A stretch of DNA of 64,000 bases from Candidatus Rikenella faecigallinarum (GTDB taxonomy: Bacteria > Bacteroidota > Bacteroidia > Bacteroidales > Rikenellaceae), in the NCBI GenBank assembly GCA_019113395.1, contig DXHL01000021.1, forward strand, positions 180,237-244,236. The letters are read 5' to 3'. Positions 15,152 to 64,000 of the stretch are shown one piece after another; position 1 is the stretch's first letter; every line of letters begins with the position of its first letter. A program made the translations under genes and the position numbers. Under the pieces are notes generated by a model. It ran no database searches. It was not told where the DNA came from and was given only the letters and a program-made list of their open reading frames with translations.

Positions 15152-15775
15152 GGTCGTAAGGACGCTTTCCCGGGGGCCGACGGCAGCACGATACTGCAAA
15201 CAGGAAACCCTAATGCACAGACTATTCCAATTTATGGAGCTGACGGAAGTTTATTGACCGAGGAGAGCACATTAGGATTACGATTTATAAAGATTACGAC
15301 AAGTGGCATATTGAGCGAAAACACCTCTCAAGTTTATGCGATTAAAAATCCGCTTGTATTTATTTGTGGAGTGTCATCTCTGTACGACTGGTATACTGAG
15401 TCTTTTCAGAACAATGCTTTGTGGGGCGATAATGTCGAGAAAAGTGCTTATGACCCTTGTCCCGCTGATTGGCGCGTACCAACAGATGCCTCCCTTACCT
15501 TCGGAGATATAACAGTAGAGACTACAACGGTATCCGGTACAGGAAGGGAAGTCGCCAATGGAAGGACTTATCAATCTATGGCCTGGTTTCCAATGGCCGG
15601 ACGTCGTAACAACGACAGTGGTACTTTGCGCTACGTAGGTGGTAGCAGTTGTTCTTGGTCTGCTTCTATTAGCGATACATACTCAATAAGTTTATACTAT
15701 GATACGAGCAATGTCGGCTCTGATTATCTTTACTCCCGGGCCTATGGACAAATGATTCGTTGCGTACAGGAGTAA
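15152..15775 (+). pseudogene. cassette A: start-less FISUMP-type C-terminal domain (silent donor cassette candidate)
   Basis: Open frame GRKDAFPGADGSTILQTGNPNAQTIPIYGADG...AIKNPLVFI...DPCPADWRVPTD...MIRCVQE*, preceded by in-frame TGA (15146-15148) and no ATG. Track start (TTG 15254) is internal. Confidence 0.8.
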
Positions 15776-15938
15776 TGTGAGGGGGAAGGGAAGGAGCGGG
15801 ATAAGGGGGGAGTAATCCGCAGGGGTATCCGTGTAGGGGAAGAGGGGGAAGGCGCAAGGAGCAGCTCAGGCTCTCCCGGAGGGAAGAGAGCGCAAAGAGA
15901 AGATAAACCCCAGGCGAGGAAACCCGGACACGCGAAGG
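15776..15938 (+). repeat. cassette 3' constant box, copy A
   Basis: Near-identical to 34747-34912, revcomp 55285-55451 and revcomp 63874-64000; shared gagtaatccgcaggggtatccgtgtaggggaa. Confidence 0.9.
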
Positions 15939-16340
15939 GTGCCGCTCGGCACTCGAACCAAACTGCACAGTCAAGGCAGTACCTCAGGTCGAAGCCGGCG
16001 GAGCATGCTCGCCTCAGAGCAGGCCTCCGCATGCGGCGGCTTCGGCCTGACACGAATTGCAAGCCATTCGCATTCTATTGCGGACACAAGTCGGCTCGAG
16101 CGCCGAGCGGCACCTCGGGAGCAGCCGGCGGAGAAATGCAAACAATGTGCGGTAGCGCATTTTTGCGGTTCTCCGCATCCCACCGGCTGCGAACCGCAAC
16201 GGTTGCTCGCGCAACCGCAGCTTCTCGGACAATCATTCCCGCCTCTTTCTGTCAGCGCCAACCCCCGAGCGGCACCCGCAGCCAGCCAAGGGGATCAGGA
16301 GTTTTTGGGGAGTATTTCGCCCCTCCGGCTCCTGCCGCTT
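15939..16340 (+). repeat. hairpin-array flank of cassette A
   Basis: Successive imperfect palindromes, e.g. caggtcgaagccggcgga...gcggcttcggcctg and ggttgctcgcgcaacc; homologous to other cassette flanks. Confidence 0.75.
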
Positions 16341-32312: not shown

Positions 32313-34052
32313 ATGGAACAAACAGAATTGAGCGAGCAGGAGATATTGCGTCGCGAGTCGATGAAGAAGTTGCGGGAATTGGGCATCGAGCCCTATCCGG
32401 CGGCAGAATATAAGGTAACGGCCACGGCCGCCGAGATACGGGAGAAGTACACTCCGGATAGCACGGCGTATGGCGATGTTTGCATAGCCGGCCGTATCAT
32501 GAGTCGGCGTATTATGGGGAGTGCGTCGTTTTTCGAGTTGCAGGACCATACGGGTCGGATACAGGTGTATATCAAGCGTGACGACATTTGCCCGGAGGGA
32601 GACCCGACGCTATACAATGTAGTTTTCAAGAAGCTGTTGGACATTGGTGACATTGTCGGGGTTCGGGGTTTTGCTTTCATTACCCAGATGGGCGAGTTGT
32701 CGGTCCACTGCAAGGAGCTGACCGTCTTGAGCAAGTCGTTGCGTCCGTTGCCCATTGTGAAGGAGAAGGACGGTCAGGTGTTCGATGCGTTCAGCGACCC
32801 GGAGCAGCGTTACCGTATGCGGTATGTGGATTTGATTGTGAATCCCCAGGTGAAGGAGGTCTTTTTGCAGCGTTCGAAGATAATCGCAACGATGCGGCGT
32901 TTTTTCAACGAGCGCGGCTATGTGGAGGTGGAGACCCCGATATTGCAGCCGATACCGGGTGGCGCCGCCGCCCGTCCGTTCATCACGCACCACAACACGC
33001 TGGATATTCCGTTGTATCTTCGGATAGCCAACGAGTTGTACTTGAAGCGGTTGATAGTCGGGGGATTTGACGGGGTCTACGAATTTGCCAAGGATTTCCG
33101 TAACGAGGGTATGGACCGCACGCACAATCCCGAGTTTACGGTGATGGAGATTTACATTGCGTATAAGGACTACCGTTGGATGATGGAGTTCACGGAGCAG
33201 ATGATAGAGACTGTAGCGAAGGAGCTTCACGGCGGTCAGACGGAGGTTCAGATAGGCGAGCGCAAGATAGACTTTAAGGCTCCGTTCCGTCGGTTGTCGA
33301 TGACGGATGCGATACGTGAGAAGACCGGTTTCGATATTACAGGCAAGACGGAAGAGGAGCTTCGCACGGCATGTCGAGAGATGGGGGTTGAGATAGACGA
33401 CACGATGGGTAAAGGGAAGTTGATTGATGCGATTTTTGGAGCGAAGTGCGAAGAGGATTTGATACAGCCGACCTTCGTAACGGACTATCCGATAGAGATG
33501 TCTCCGTTGTGTAAACGGCATCGCGACAATCCGGAGCTGACCGAGCGTTTTGAGTTGTTTGTGAACGGGAAGGAGTTGTGCAATGCCTACTCGGAGTTGA
33601 ACGACCCGGTAGACCAGTTGGAGCGTTTCCAGGAGCAGTTGCGGTTGTCGGAGAAGGGGGACGATGAAGCGATGTTTATCGACATGGACTTTGTTCGGGC
33701 GTTGGAATACGGGATGCCTACCTGTTCCGGGATGGGTATCGGGATTGACCGCCTGACGATGTTCATGACCAATCAGGCTTCGATACAGGATGTCCTGTTT
33801 TTCCCGCAGATGCGTCCGGAGAAGAAGGTTGTTCGTGACGAGGAGGGAGCATATACGGCGCTTGGTGTGCCTGCGGAGTGGGTTTCTGTGTTGCAGAAGA
33901 TGGGTTATGTGACGGTATCGTCGTTGAGCGGTCTGGCTCCGGGCAAATTGTTCAATGACTTGTGCAGTTTCAACAAGAAGAATAAGTTGGGATTGAAGAA
34001 TCCGAGTGCAGAGGAAGTGAAGGGATGGATTTCCGGAGCAGGAGCCCAATAG
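32313..34052 (+). CDS. lysS: lysine--tRNA ligase, class II
   Basis: [40 protein letters not shown]; start [30 protein letters not shown] chosen after promoter. Confidence 0.96.
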
Positions 34053-34085
34053 CGAATATCATCTGCGCCCTTTATGGGTTATATA

Positions 34086-34117
34086 CAGCCACCGCTTCAT
34101 GCGGTGGCTGTTTTTGT
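34086..34117 (+). terminator. intrinsic terminator of lysS
   Basis: cagccaccgc-ttcat-gcggtggctg followed by tttttgttt. Confidence 0.92.
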
Positions 34118-34131
34118 TTATGGGGATATTG

Positions 34132-34746
34132 GGCCGCAAGGACGCATTTCCGGGGGCCGACGGCAGCACGATAGGTTCCACCCTCCAAACTATGTTAATT
34201 TATGACAGTAATAACACTCCACTGACTGATGGAAGTACGGGCGTAAAATTAGTGGATATTACAACGGAGGATGTATTGAATGAAAATATCGCACAAGTTT
34301 ATGCCCATAAGAATCCATTGACATTTATTTATAACGTAGACAATCTTGGGGATTGGTATACCAATAATTTTAGTTTTCAGGATAATATGTTGTGGGGGGA
34401 TAAGGATAAAAAGAGTGTGTTCGACCCGTGCCCCGCAGGTTGGCAGGTACCGACAGATTCAGAAAAGACATTTGGAGACTTTTCGACTACTACCATGACC
34501 TTATCGGGTTGGGGTATGAATGTATCCAATGGGAGAACTTATAGCAATACTTCATGGTTTCCTGCAACAGGGTATCGTAACCGCACTAGTGGTACATTAT
34601 ACAGTGTTGGCAGCAACGGCTACTATTGGTCTGTTTCCGTGAGTGGCACGAATGCCAAGTACATGTACTTTTCTATGAGCGAAGTCATCCCTACCCGTAC
34701 CAATGGCCGCGGTTATGGTTTTTCGGTCCGTTGCATACAGGAGTAG
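34132..34746 (+). pseudogene. cassette B: start-less FISUMP-type C-terminal domain
   Basis: GRKDAFPGADGSTIGSTLQ...AHKNPLTFIYN...LWGDKDKKSVFDPCPAGWQVPTD...RGYGFSVRCIQE*. The track ATG at 34099 lies inside the lysS terminator hairpin. Confidence 0.82.
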
Positions 34747-34912
34747 CGTGAGGGAATCGAAGGAGCGGGATAAGGGGGAGTAATCCGCAGGGGTATCCGT
34801 GTAGGGGAAGAGGGGGAAGGCGCAGGGAGCCGCTCAGCCTCTCCTGGAGGGAAGAGAGTGCAAAGAGCAGATAAACCCCAGGCGAGGAAACCCGAACACG
34901 AGAAGGGAGTCC
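34747..34912 (+). repeat. cassette 3' constant box, copy B
   Basis: Near-identical to copies A, C and D. Confidence 0.9.
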
Positions 34913-35560
34913 CCACAGCATGACCCCTCCGACTTAACACCCAAGCGAAGCCGACTGCAGCAGCAGTCGTGCAGGCCGAAGCCGCCCCCAGCGGAGGCCT
35001 GCTCTGAGGCGAGCATGCCCCGCCGGCTTCGACCTGAGAACGCTTTGTGGCAAAACACAAATCGATTCGCGCACCAAACGGCACCGGGTTGCCTCAGCAA
35101 AACGTATTCCCCGCTGCCGGCGAAGTGTGAGGTAAACACAAATCAGCTGGAGTCCCCGGCAACACCCGCAGCCAGAGAAGGGAAGAGAGAGCACGCCGCG
35201 CGGGCACTCTTTCAGCCCTTCGCCGGGGATGGCTGCGGGCTGACGGTTTCTAACGAAACCGTAGCGGCTCAGACTATTATTCCCTCCTCTTTCGGCGGCA
35301 CCGCCTCCCCCGCTGGCTGCGGCCTGACACAACTTCTGCGAAGTCGCATTCGATTTAATAACACAAGTCGGTTCGCGTGCAGAGCGGCACCCGGACGGAT
35401 CCAGTGGAGGACACGCGAGAAGCGCAGGCCTCCGCAGCCCTCCGCAGCCCGATGGCTTCGGCCTGTCACGGTTGCTCACGCAACCGCAGGCTTTTGTCAA
35501 TACAATTCGGTTCGGGTGCCGCTGGGTACTCCAGCCAAGCCGCCTCTACCCTCTATACTT
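34913..35560 (+). repeat. hairpin-array flank of cassette B
   Basis: Palindromes caggccgaagccg...cggcttcgacctg, cccgcagcca...tggctgcggg, acttctgcgaagt, ggtttctaacgaaacc, ggttgctcacgcaacc. Confidence 0.8.
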
Positions 35561-35811
35561 CACAAGCAGCAACCCGACAACACAAAATAGACTCCCGATA
35601 GTCAGCAAAACAGATAGGGATAGACACGGGCGACTGGTACATTTTAGAGAGTGTCCGCATTATTTTGGTTATCCGTATCTGAGCAAAGAACCTTGACAGG
35701 TTCACCTTTCACTCTTCAGACAGCCATTACCCTGCAATTCAGTTTCGCATCATAGAAAGGATAGAGACACACTTCTTCATTTGGTATAAATTCACACATT
35801 CCATAAAAAAA

Positions 35812-35887: not shown

Positions 35888-38800
35888 TTACATGGCTCCG
35901 TGGCAGTTTTTATACTTTTTACCGGAGCCACAGGGACAGGGGTCATTGCGTCCCACCCGTTTTTCGGCATGCGCCGGTGCCGGTTTAGCGCTCGTCGAAG
36001 AGGCCGAGCCTCCTCCCGCCACAGCACGGGGCGGCACAGGCCCTTCATTCCGTGAAGTTTGCATACGATTCATGTCGGGACGATTCCGAGCCGGGATAGC
36101 CTGCTGCGGTTGAGCCTGAGGTGTCGGTTGGGGGGCACCCTGCCCTGCTCCGGCCGGCGCCAGCGGCAGGTAGACCTTGAAGAGCATTGAGAGCACTTCA
36201 CGATTGATTTTTTCAATCATTTTACGGAAGAGTTCGAACGATTCGAACTTATAAATCAAGAGCGGGTCTTTCTGTTCGTAGGCGGCATTTTGGACCGATT
36301 GTTTGAGGTCGTCCATGTCGCGGAGATGTTCTTTCCAGTCGTCATCGATGGTGATGAGCATCATCACACGGCTAAATGCCTTATGGATTTCCAGCCCTTT
36401 GGATTCCACGGCGCGTTTGAAATTGACAGGCACATTCAGCCCGCGTTTTCCGTCCGTCAGCGGAATCGTAATGTTTTCGAACTTATCGCCCTGCTCTTTG
36501 TAGATGGCCTCGAGCACAGGATATGCCTGTTGAGCAATCTGGGAAGCGCGACGTTTGAGGGCGCTGCGCATATCGCCGAGGAGCATTTCGGCCAGTTGCT
36601 GGTCTTTGAGGTCATTGTACTCTTCTTCGGTGAAGGAGGGTTCAATGGAGATTTGTCGGATAAGTTCAACTTTGAACTCCTCGAAGGGGAGTCCCCGATA
36701 ATTTTCAATAAAGGTTTCAGCAAAGTCGGTCATCATGTTATTGACATCGACTTCGATACGTTCGCCGAAAACGGCATTGTGCCGACGCGTGTAGATAACT
36801 TCGCGCTGGGAGTTCATCACGTCGTCGTATTCGAGGAGGCGTTTACGAATCCCGAAGTTGTTCTCTTCAACCTTCTTTTGGGCACGTTCAATGGCACGGC
36901 TCATCATACCTGCCTGGATGACCTCGCCTTCCTTCAGCCCCATGGAGTCCATCAGTCGGGCAATGCGTTCGGAGCCGAAGAGACGCATGAGGTCATCTTC
37001 GAGCGATACGAAGAATTGCGACGAGCCGGGGTCTCCTTGACGTCCGGCACGCCCGCGGAGCTGACGATCCACACGCCTCGACTCGTGGCGTTCGGTCCCG
37101 ATAATGGCCAACCCGCCGGCCTCGCGCACCTCGGGGGTCAGTTTGATGTCGGTACCACGCCCCGCCATGTTCGTGGCGATGGTCACCTGTCCGGGCCGAC
37201 CCGCTTCGGCCACGATTTGGGCTTCGAGCTGGTGTTGTTTGGCATTGAGGACGTTGTGTTTAATCCCCCGCAGTTTGAGCATCTTGGAGAGGAGCTCGGA
37301 GATTTCGACGGAGGTAGTCCCCACCAACACCGGTCGCCCTTCACCGACGAGTTTGACGATTTCGTCAATCACCGCGGCATATTTTTCGCGTTTGGTCTTG
37401 TAGATAAGGTCCTGGTAGTCTTTACGGATAACCGGGCGGTTTGTCGGGATAACGATAACGTCCAGTTTGTAGATATTCCAGAGTTCCGATGCTTCGGTTT
37501 CGGCTGTCCCGGTCATCCCGGCCAGCTTGTGGTACATACGGAAATAGTTCTGGAGGGTAATGGTGGCAAAGGTTTGCGTTGCCGCCTCCACTTTCACACG
37601 CTCTTTAGCTTCGATAGCCTGGTGGAGGCCGTCCGAGTAGCGTCGCCCGTCAAGGATACGTCCCGTCTGTTCATCGACAATCTTCACCTTGTTGTCCATG
37701 ACCACGTATTCGGTATCCTTTTCGAAGAGGGCATAGGCTTTGAGGAGTTGATGCACGGTGTGTACGCGTTCCGATTTGAGGGCGTACTCACTGAGCAACT
37801 TATCCTTGGCCGCCAACCGTTCTTCGACGGTCATATCGCTTTTTTCGAGGGTAGCAATTTCGCTTCCTATGTCGGGCAGGATGAAGAATCGCTTGTCGTT
37901 CATGTTCCCCGCCAGCGCATCGTGTCCCTTGTCGGTGAGTTCCACGGAGTGCAGTTTCTCGTCGATAACGAAGTAGAGGTCATCGGTCACTTCGTGCATC
38001 CGTTTGCTGTTGTCCTGCATGTAGAAGTTTTCGGTTTTCTGCATGAGGGCTTTCATTCCGGGTTCGGAGAGGAACTTGATAAGGGGTTTGTATTTGGGGA
38101 GCCCCTTGTGCACGGCCAACAGGAGTTTTCCGCCCTTGGCTTCGTCCCCCTCGGCAATCACTTTACGAGCTTCGGCCAGCAGGGAGGTGCAGAGGTTGCG
38201 CTGAAGGTTGTAGAGCGATTCGACCTGTCCGCGGTACTCTTCGAAGAGCTGGTCTTCGCCGCGGGGTACGGGTCCCGAGATAATCAGCGGGGTACGTGCA
38301 TCGTCGATAAGGACGGAGTCCACCTCATCGACAATGGCATAGTGGTGTTCGCGCTGCACGAGGTCACCCGGGTCGATGGCCATATTGTCGCGCAGGTAGT
38401 CGAACCCGAATTCGTTGTTGGTCCCGAAGGTAATGTCGCAGTTGTATGCTTTGCGGCGTTCGTCGGAGTTGGGTTGGTGTTTGTCGATGCAATCGACCGT
38501 GAGGCCGTGGAACTGGTAGATGGGGCCCATCCACTCCGAGTCGCGTCGGGCAAGGTAGTCATTGACAGTCACCACGTGCACCCCTTTTCCCGCGAGCGCA
38601 TTCAGGAAAACGGGGAGCGTAGCCACGAGGGTTTTCCCTTCACCGGTCGCCATTTCGGCGACATTGCCTTTGTGGAGTGCCACCCCGCCGAAGAGTTGGA
38701 CATCGTAGTGAATCATGTCCCAGGTGATTTCGTTTCCACCGGCGAGCCAGTGGTTTTGGTAGACGGCTTTATCCCCGTCGATGCGGACAAAATCTTTCCC

Positions 38801-54429: not shown

Positions 54430-55284
54430 GCCACCGTGTCCAACCGCAGGTGCCGCGGGCACTCCGAGAAAGAGTTTGCTCGACGAATAAGCGGAGGCTG
54501 TCCTTGTGGAGCAATCCCGCCGGCTTCGACCTGAAGTGTTAGCTCCACACATCCAACTAATTAATATTCGGCAAAAGCGGTTGCGCAGCAACCGTGTCAG
54601 GCCGGAGCCATCGGGCTGCGGAGGCCTGCGCTTCTCGCGCGTCCTCCACTGGCTCCGTCCGGGTGCCGCTCGGCGCTCGAACCGACTTGTGTTATTAAAT
54701 CAAATGCGATTTCGCAGAAATTGTGTCAGGCAGCAGGTTCCGTCGGGTATAGTAACCGACTCTTGTCTGAAAGATTCGGTTTCGTTAGAAACCGTCAGCC
54801 CGCAGCCACCCCGGCGAAGGGCTGAAAGAGTGCCCGCGCGGCGTGCTCTCTCTTCCCTTCGCTGGCTGCGGGTACTGCCGGGTACTTCTGCTGATTTGTG
54901 TTTACCTCACACTCTGCCGGCAGCGGGGAATACGTTTTGCATTTTCAGATAGGCCCTGTGAAGTAAGGGGTAGAGGCAGCGCGGCACTCGAGCCGACTCG
55001 TGTCTGTCTGTAGAGTGCGGCATCGTGAAGACCGGAGCCGGCGGAGGCGGAAAAGCGAACCCGTGCGGGTGAGTTTTTCAGCCCTCCGCATGGGTCGGCT
55101 CCGGTCTGACGAGTTGCCTCAGCAACCCGGTGCCGTTTGATACACGAATCGATTTGTGTTTTGCCATAAAGCGTTCTCAGGACGGAACCAGTGGGGGATT
55201 GCGCCTTAGCGCAGGCCTCCACCGAGGGTGGTTCCGGCCTGACATAGGGAGTTTGCTCTGCCTATGTTTGACGCCATAGCTTGA
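54430..55284 (-). repeat. hairpin-array flank of cassette C
   Basis: Palindromes cagcccgcagcca...tggctgcggg, gaccggagccggcggagg...cctccgc..ggctccggtc, cggtttcgttagaaaccg, atttcgcagaaat; homologous to B flank. Confidence 0.8.
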
Positions 55285-55451
55285 CACCCTTCTCGTGTCA
55301 GGGTTTCCTCGCTTGGGATTTATCTGCTCTTTGCGCTCTCTTCCCTCCGGGAGAGGCTGAGCTGCTCCCTGCGCCTTCCCCCTATTCCCCTACACGGATA
55401 CCCCTGCGGATTACTCCCCCCTTATCCCGCTTCTTCGATTCTCCCCTCACT
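55285..55451 (-). repeat. cassette 3' constant box, copy C
   Basis: Reverse complement nearly identical to copies A and B. Confidence 0.9.
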
Positions 55452-56102
55452 CTACTCCTGCACGCAACGGACGGATACGCTATATCCTCGACTACTTGTG
55501 CTGTTAGGAGAAATATTTGTCATCTGATAATATAAGCGTTTAACAGCATTTATTTCATTAATTGAGGAAGACCAAAAAGCAGCATTAAGACCTACATAAT
55601 ACAAAACTCCTGAGGTAGCATATCGTGTTCCAGAAGAGGGATACCAAGCCAACTGGTTGTATAATCGACCATTCAGAGCGGATTTGTTTCCAGAAGAGGA
55701 TAACATACCTTCATTGTAATGTGGAGCGGATGTAGTAGAAAAATCTCCCCATGTTATTTCTGCATCTGTTGGTATTCTCCACCCTTTTGGACAGGGATCA
55801 TAATTGCTTTTTTTGTTTCCATCACCCCATAAATCATCATTTTGGTAAATCACATTGTTGGTGTACCAGTCCCATGGAGATGCTGTATTGTAAATAAAGG
55901 ATAGAGGATGCTTTATCGCATAATTTTGTGAATTAGCACCATTCATTACGTCTGCAGTTGTGATATTTACTTTGCCATATCCTGTACCATCCTCTGATAA
56001 TTTTTCGCCTGAGGCTCCATAAATTGGTATGGTTGTGGCATTTTGTCCATCAATTTGAGTTATCGTGCTGCCGTCGGCGCCCGGGAAACCGTCCTTGCGG
56101 CC
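55452..56102 (-). pseudogene. cassette C: start-less FISUMP-type C-terminal domain
   Basis: (LYQW)GRKDGFPGADGSTITQIDGQ...AIKHPLSFIYN...DPCPKGWRIPTD...RGYSVSVRCVQE*. The ORF upstream of 56102 runs through a terminator hairpin, so the track start is artefactual. Confidence 0.82.
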
Positions 56103-63873: not shown

Positions 63874-64000
63874 CCCTCGTTTCAGGGCTTCCTCGCTTGG
63901 GGTTTATCTGCTCTTTGCTCTCTCTTCCCTCCGGGAGAGGCTGAGCTGCTCCCTGCGCCTTCCCCCTCTTCCCCTACACGGATACCCCTGCGGATTACTC
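63874..64000 (-). repeat. cassette 3' constant box, copy D (truncated by window edge)
   Basis: Reverse complement of the constant box; implies a fourth cassette reading in from the right. Confidence 0.88.

Follow-up and report, generated by a model that had tools for sequence, protein, structure and literature searches.

A start-less frame between two terminators

What is an open reading frame of 204 codons, lacking a proper start, doing in the gap between the terminators of two convergent genes? The frame lies in the stretch of 64,000 nucleotides analyzed here (“the window”; C34:180237-244236) of the Candidatus Rikenella faecigallinarum genome (G000; 2.07 Mb, 98.65% complete). It occupies window positions 34132-34746 on the lysS strand and reads GRKDAFPGADGST...RCIQE*, with GRKDAFPGADGSTI at its start and FSVRCIQE at its finish, followed by a TAG stop at 34744-34746. 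A sequence-only reading of this DNA had taken the frame, here called donor B, for a donor-like FISUMP cassette that starts about 15 nt after the lysS terminator, has only two ATGs nearby and, together with the sequence behind it, fills the gap between lysS and secA.

All of these local observations were reproduced. The lysS terminator (34085-34119, plus strand; hairpin detected at 34085-34111) is an 11-pair stem followed by TTTTTGTTT and lies immediately 5′ of the cassette. Homology of donor B to the full-length gene described below begins at 34131/34132, ~15-20 nt past the hairpin, and the only in-frame ATGs 5′ of the frame are at 34099, inside the hairpin, and at 34120, just past it. lysS ends at 34052 and secA at 35888. 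Most of the 1.8-kb gap between them is taken up by the cassette, a constant box and a hairpin array (34132 to ~35590), and the secA terminator, detected on the minus strand (35845-35813), closes the block. Against PF09603 (Fib_succ_major, FISUMP), donor B reaches 28.1 bits, which is below the Pfam gathering cut-off of 33.9.

Sequence comparison of donors and column conservation divide the block into (i) a 5′ box (GRKDAFPGADGSTI; 34132-34174), the conserved left arm; (ii) a variable coding segment (34175-34710); (iii) the conserved C-terminal codons and stop, about FSVRCIQE* (34711-34746); (iv) a noncoding 3′ constant box (34747-34907), the conserved right arm; and (v) the hairpin array (34915-35590), which has a fold z of -7.4. 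Parts (i) to (iv) are on the plus strand, and the array is assigned to neither strand.

A dispersed family with conserved arms

The frame and its family are far beyond chance. G000 holds 48 FISUMP segments, comprising 47 dispersed donors and one full-length gene; the 43-nt 5′ box is present in 48 copies, and a protein search also lists dozens of matching segments, so the frame proposed from the sequence is real. In the common layout, the 43-nt 5′ box leads into a coding middle that is divergent between donors; a noncoding 3′ box of ~160 nt follows, and in most cases a hairpin array comes after this box. Besides donor B, the window contains donor A with its 3′ box (15152-15939, plus strand; box at 15758-15939), donor C with its 3′ box (55283-56102, minus strand) and, at 63876-64000 on the minus strand, the 3′ box belonging to another segment that the contig end truncates. 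The overlap there with contigs C12 and C21, at their ends, is exactly 131 nt.

The two arms and the middle differ sharply in conservation. Among uncut donors, the coding middle has a median pairwise nucleotide identity of 56% and a maximum of 71%. With the 3′ box as a query (34747-34905), we found at least 40 places with 90-95% identity (40 of 60 candidates were scored), all of them by such segments or at contig ends. The noncoding box is therefore far better conserved than the coding middle, and noncoding arms kept better than the coding core are what recombination homology arms would be expected to look like. The box is G-rich and purine-rich (median G4Hunter maximum, 1.96), and a relaxed G-quadruplex pattern occurs in 42 of 43 boxes, with the strict pattern in 11. 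A structured RNA at this position was considered and rejected (fold z -1.0; no convincing Rfam match).

At the other end, the 5′ junctions are abrupt and differ in position from donor to donor: homology to the expressed gene sets in somewhere in a range of ~40 nt that extends from AAGGCTTTTGG into the GRKD box, and the sequence further upstream is unrelated. Short sequences 5′ of the junction are common to two pairs of donors, GAGGTGCGATATGAGCGG... to C25:146(-) and C8:18937(-), and GGTGCGATATGG to C25:53721(-) and C21:7548(+); these might mark insertion sites or spread from donor to donor. Sequence related to the hairpin array is found behind 35 of the 48 segments. Spread of the array by a REP/RAYT mechanism was rejected, as G000 has no Y1-type transposase (PF01797).

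Many contigs of G000 (C6, C12, C13, C21, C23, C24, C25, C30, C34, C2, C17, C33 and C35) end in cassettes or 3′ boxes. The cassette system itself fragments the assembly. In annotation, such donors appear as dozens of hypothetical proteins or as nothing, and assemblies break within them.

One full-length gene in a fimbrillin-like operon

When the 545-residue N-terminal part of the longest frame was used as a query, a single full-length gene was identified in G000, C6:192-1826 (minus strand), which runs on to the contig end (G000:C6:1-1826). Its protein begins MKRLLIIALSGMMLGSCTKS, a lipoprotein-type signal, and its FISUMP part is preceded by the Pfam domains P_gingi_FimA and DUF4906. The preceding gene encodes an Mfa-like fimbrillin lipoprotein, and a Bacteroidetes-type promoter motif lies ~96 nt before it. 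From this neighborhood, we infer that the product is a fimbrial, probably tip, subunit. Contig C6 ends within the variable part, so that the 3′ half of the gene and any 3′ box lie outside the sequence. The downstream half of the locus was sought by synteny; G000 lacks the gene found downstream in G002 and G006. Two other long frames, of 447 codons on C26 and 354 codons on C36, were rejected as extra expression loci: neither has a homologous N-terminus, and the C26 frame passes through an upstream hydroxyethylthiazole-kinase-like gene in an alternative reading frame.

The full-length gene is a mosaic of two donors

As far as the end of C6, the recipient (the full-length gene) has a variable part composed of 79 nt identical to donor C28:38288(-), 18 of which fall in the 5′ box, and then 113 nt that match donor C21:7548(+) exactly. 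The recipient and both donors all contain the 13-nt stretch in which the switch takes place, GGAAATACGCTGA, and both donors are on contigs other than C6. The next best donor match to the recipient is 18 nt. As background, the longest identical run over the same stretch in 1081 donor-donor pairs has a median of 8 nt and a 99th percentile of 19. Where contig ends were found to overlap in the assembly, they do so by exactly 131 nt, and the 113-nt match is internal to contig C21; the chimera is thus not a contig-overlap effect. The only comparable match is that between the contig-end donors of C25 and C30, with at least 131 nt in common, which points to recent copying between donor loci. Older mosaicism among donors is also present, since 22 pairs contain a 60-nt window of at least 85% identity compared with 0-3 pairs in 20 column shuffles.

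These matches raise the question of direction. The full-length gene could be the source and the dispersed copies archives written from it: donors must have been seeded somehow, their 5′ ends cluster within 40 nt, as outward copying would leave them, and the two loci with at least 131 identical nt could be read in the same way. However, two donors that meet at one 13-nt junction in the recipient are most simply the product of one inward conversion, and archives that were never reused would lose their frames. We therefore regard the archive explanation as very unlikely, while both directions of copying may occur.

Occupied and empty sites in related genomes

The genome collection contains one genome per species, the source species included. 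All eight genomes contain lysS. In four congeners (G001, G002, G003 and G006), secA adjoins it or is nearby, and no FISUMP segment lies between the two genes; thus, cassette B represents a site that is occupied in the source species and empty in four relatives. The sequence-only reading had named this comparison as its check, and the block proved not to be invariant. The gap is not always bare, as G003 and G006 have related hairpins there and G002 has inserted genes.

Numbers of fragments, full-length genes included, range widely within the genus: 0 in G001, 11 in G002, 10 in G004, 40 in G007, 49 in G003, 53 in G006 and 133 in G005. Many of those in G004, G005 and G007 are mini-donors of ~190 nt that extend from PGYR to FQVRCLQ. 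Because they end before the stop codon, the mini-donors of G004 and G007 cannot be genes of their own. The mini-donors correspond to the part of the G000 donors that varies most (residues ~206-264 of the modeled domain). In G007, one mini-donor matches the last part of the full-length gene at 94% identity over 140 nt, with exact homology from the CCCGCCCCGGGCT motif; for the full-length gene of G006, an exact donor match was not found, the best donor being 90% identical. Clusters of mini-donors of ~190 nt, separated by spacers and having neither start nor stop, are seen at L157:1700-3600 and L160:3900-5900. The genus thus offers a natural comparison, with 0 to >130 fragments, long donors versus ~190-nt donors, and different 3′ ends.

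Several further observations were made in these genomes. L149 (G003:C215) and L150 (G006:C83) each carry about four full-length fimbrillin-FISUMP genes in tandem, where G000 has a single recipient. In three congeners, a serine recombinase gene lies beside the operon of Mfa-like and FISUMP genes (L152:4252-4905, L151:13446-14000 and L133:1473-1907; L133 and G007:C129 are the same contig). The assignment is by Resolvase PF00239 in L151 and by evident sequence likeness in L152 and L133. This recombinase may flip the operon promoter; at the G000 locus, no such gene was seen. In a second genus of the family (g11), a first look for PF09603 gave candidates in G036 (130), G046 (41) and G017 (47), many in long frames, which are perhaps a second expanded FISUMP system. 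A model of the congener FISUMP domain built from 50 sequences has a pLDDT of 87 (an earlier model from 23 sequences, 44). No solved structure resembles it, and neither a C-type-lectin nor an FGE fold is assigned to it here; its best match is a phage FISUMP protein (E 3.9e-4).

Open frames that are probably not genes

The 43 donors that escape truncation by a contig end are all open, over 202-233 codons. The forty-third, C25:12759, ends in VRCVQQ and departs from the others only in the end pattern used to recognize them; it was counted as open. Third-position changes are in excess in the coding middle, as in constrained proteins, with a pN/pS of ~0.5 computed with synonymous sites near saturation. 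Intact frames under such constraint are what would be seen if each segment were an independently expressed small gene with an odd upstream start, belonging to an ordinary paralogous family of surface proteins, and the donor B frame could in principle begin at 34099 or 34120. Most of the anatomy speaks against this reading, which we consider highly improbable. No in-frame ATG precedes 36 of 45 donors (one is present in the other 9), and donors have neither a signal peptide nor the N-terminal domain. Many are directly behind terminators: the upstream flank has a terminator-like structure in 18 of 46, compared with 5.5% in shuffles, and in 32 of 46 an open frame of at least 200 codons on the same strand ends no more than 400 nt upstream, compared with 27% of random window positions. 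The two Bacteroidetes-type promoter motifs in the window equal the chance expectation, and neither is near any donor. The better conservation of the noncoding 3′ box and the stop-less mini-donors of the congeners are likewise at odds with small genes.

If the segments are not genes, they might be decaying pseudogenes, or debris from past duplications of the full-length gene or from a mobile element. Sharp, staggered junctions on dispersed units resemble inserted copies, and congeners have full-length genes in tandem. Yet every uncut segment is open despite ~44% nucleotide divergence, two segments match the recipient exactly, and G000 encodes no PF01797 or PF00078 protein; decay, too, is hardly credible as an explanation. 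Finally, FISUMP-type domains are reported among the target proteins of diversity-generating retroelements (DGRs; PMC4159848), but the notion that reverse-transcriptase mutagenesis uses these copies as targets or templates can be put aside almost entirely, since 98.65% complete G000 has no RVT_1 match in a search that gave matches in control genomes, the donors differ by blocks, insertions and deletions (56% identity) and not by adenine-specific changes, and the recipient is a block mosaic.

A silent-cassette model

Donor B is very probably a silent donor cassette in a system that varies a surface protein by segmental gene conversion, which bears out the donor-like interpretation made earlier. 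The case is built at the sequence level from (i) the dispersal of the copies, (ii) their lack of proper starts, (iii) their kept frames, (iv) conserved arms around a divergent middle, (v) the single recipient, (vi) its two-donor mosaic and (vii) the empty site in relatives. According to this model, ~47 start-less copies of the C-terminal ~205 codons of the FISUMP part, placed singly behind other genes and not themselves expressed, would serve as a reservoir. Non-reciprocal copying of RecA type would transfer segments from a donor into the single expressed gene, with the 5′ and 3′ boxes and short internal identities presumably used for recombination. The outcome would be an altered antigenic or ligand-binding surface of the fimbrillin-like lipoprotein.

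How the donors multiplied is a separate matter. One possibility, which we put forward tentatively and consider somewhat doubtful, is that new sites immediately downstream of genes receive copies of the complete unit of 5′ box, variable segment, 3′ box and hairpin array. The route would depend on neither a reverse transcriptase nor a Y1 transposase and would leave imprecise 5′ ends. If true, the library would be self-expanding, which would account for the 0 to >130 fragments and the differing fragment lengths within the genus.

Comparison with known systems

Antigenic variation by silent-cassette gene conversion has been described chiefly in pathogens. The source of G000 is a gut bacterium that is not known to be one, and it appears to employ a large version of the copy-and-paste variation of Neisseria, Borrelia and Anaplasma. 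This would allow a direct test of whether the persistence of commensals in the face of IgA, phages or changing ligands depends on programmed variation of their surface. Bacteroidales also vary surface fimbrial genes by DNA rearrangement, through invertible-promoter and shufflon systems. Unlike these, the G000 locus has no inversion cassettes or recombinase, and blocks would be replaced from distant donors. What places G000 in the silent-cassette class is one complete gene with incomplete copies, conserved arms with a variable middle, and a mosaic allele. We found no description of a silent-cassette or gene-conversion system for FISUMP, Rikenella or Bacteroidetes in the open literature, outside which lie most subscription papers and all preprints, so absence of such a description is not proven.

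DGRs with FISUMP-like targets (PMC4159848) share with G000 the kind of domain and its diversification at the C-terminal part; unlike them, G000 has no reverse transcriptase, and its variation would come from recombination of stored cassettes rather than from mutagenic copying. In Borrelia vlsE, as in G000, segments within a lipoprotein are replaced from silent cassettes. The vls cassettes, however, form a contiguous array with ~90% identity to vlsE (PMC11499132), whereas the G000 donors are dispersed and ~56% identical to one another.

In Neisseria pilE/pilS, silent copies that lack a promoter and a start supply one expressed fimbrial gene through short identical stretches, much as proposed for G000, and both systems have a G-rich element near the arms. 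A G4 has been reported for pilE (PMC4534519), and the G-rich 3′ box recalls it, which is only a lead. The pilS copies are at few loci, often in tandem, compared with ~47 copies genome-wide in G000, and type IV pilin is unrelated to fimbrillin; by Pfam, the G000 protein is not a type IV pilin.

Anaplasma msp2/p44 uses functional pseudogenes and one expression site, with segmental mosaics in the expressed gene (PMC4534519, PMC2789410). G000 similarly has one full-length surface-protein gene with a segmental mosaic. It differs in the protein (P_gingi_FimA, DUF4906 and Fib_succ_major in a Pfam scan, not pfam01617), in the organism (a gut member of the Bacteroidota, not an intracellular pathogen) and in its donors. 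These are mostly single and lie directly behind genes and terminators; their right arm is noncoding, and most are followed by a hairpin array. The best reading of these likenesses and differences is a segmental gene-conversion system of a known type, in Bacteroidota, that would act on a protein unrelated to those of Neisseria and Anaplasma.
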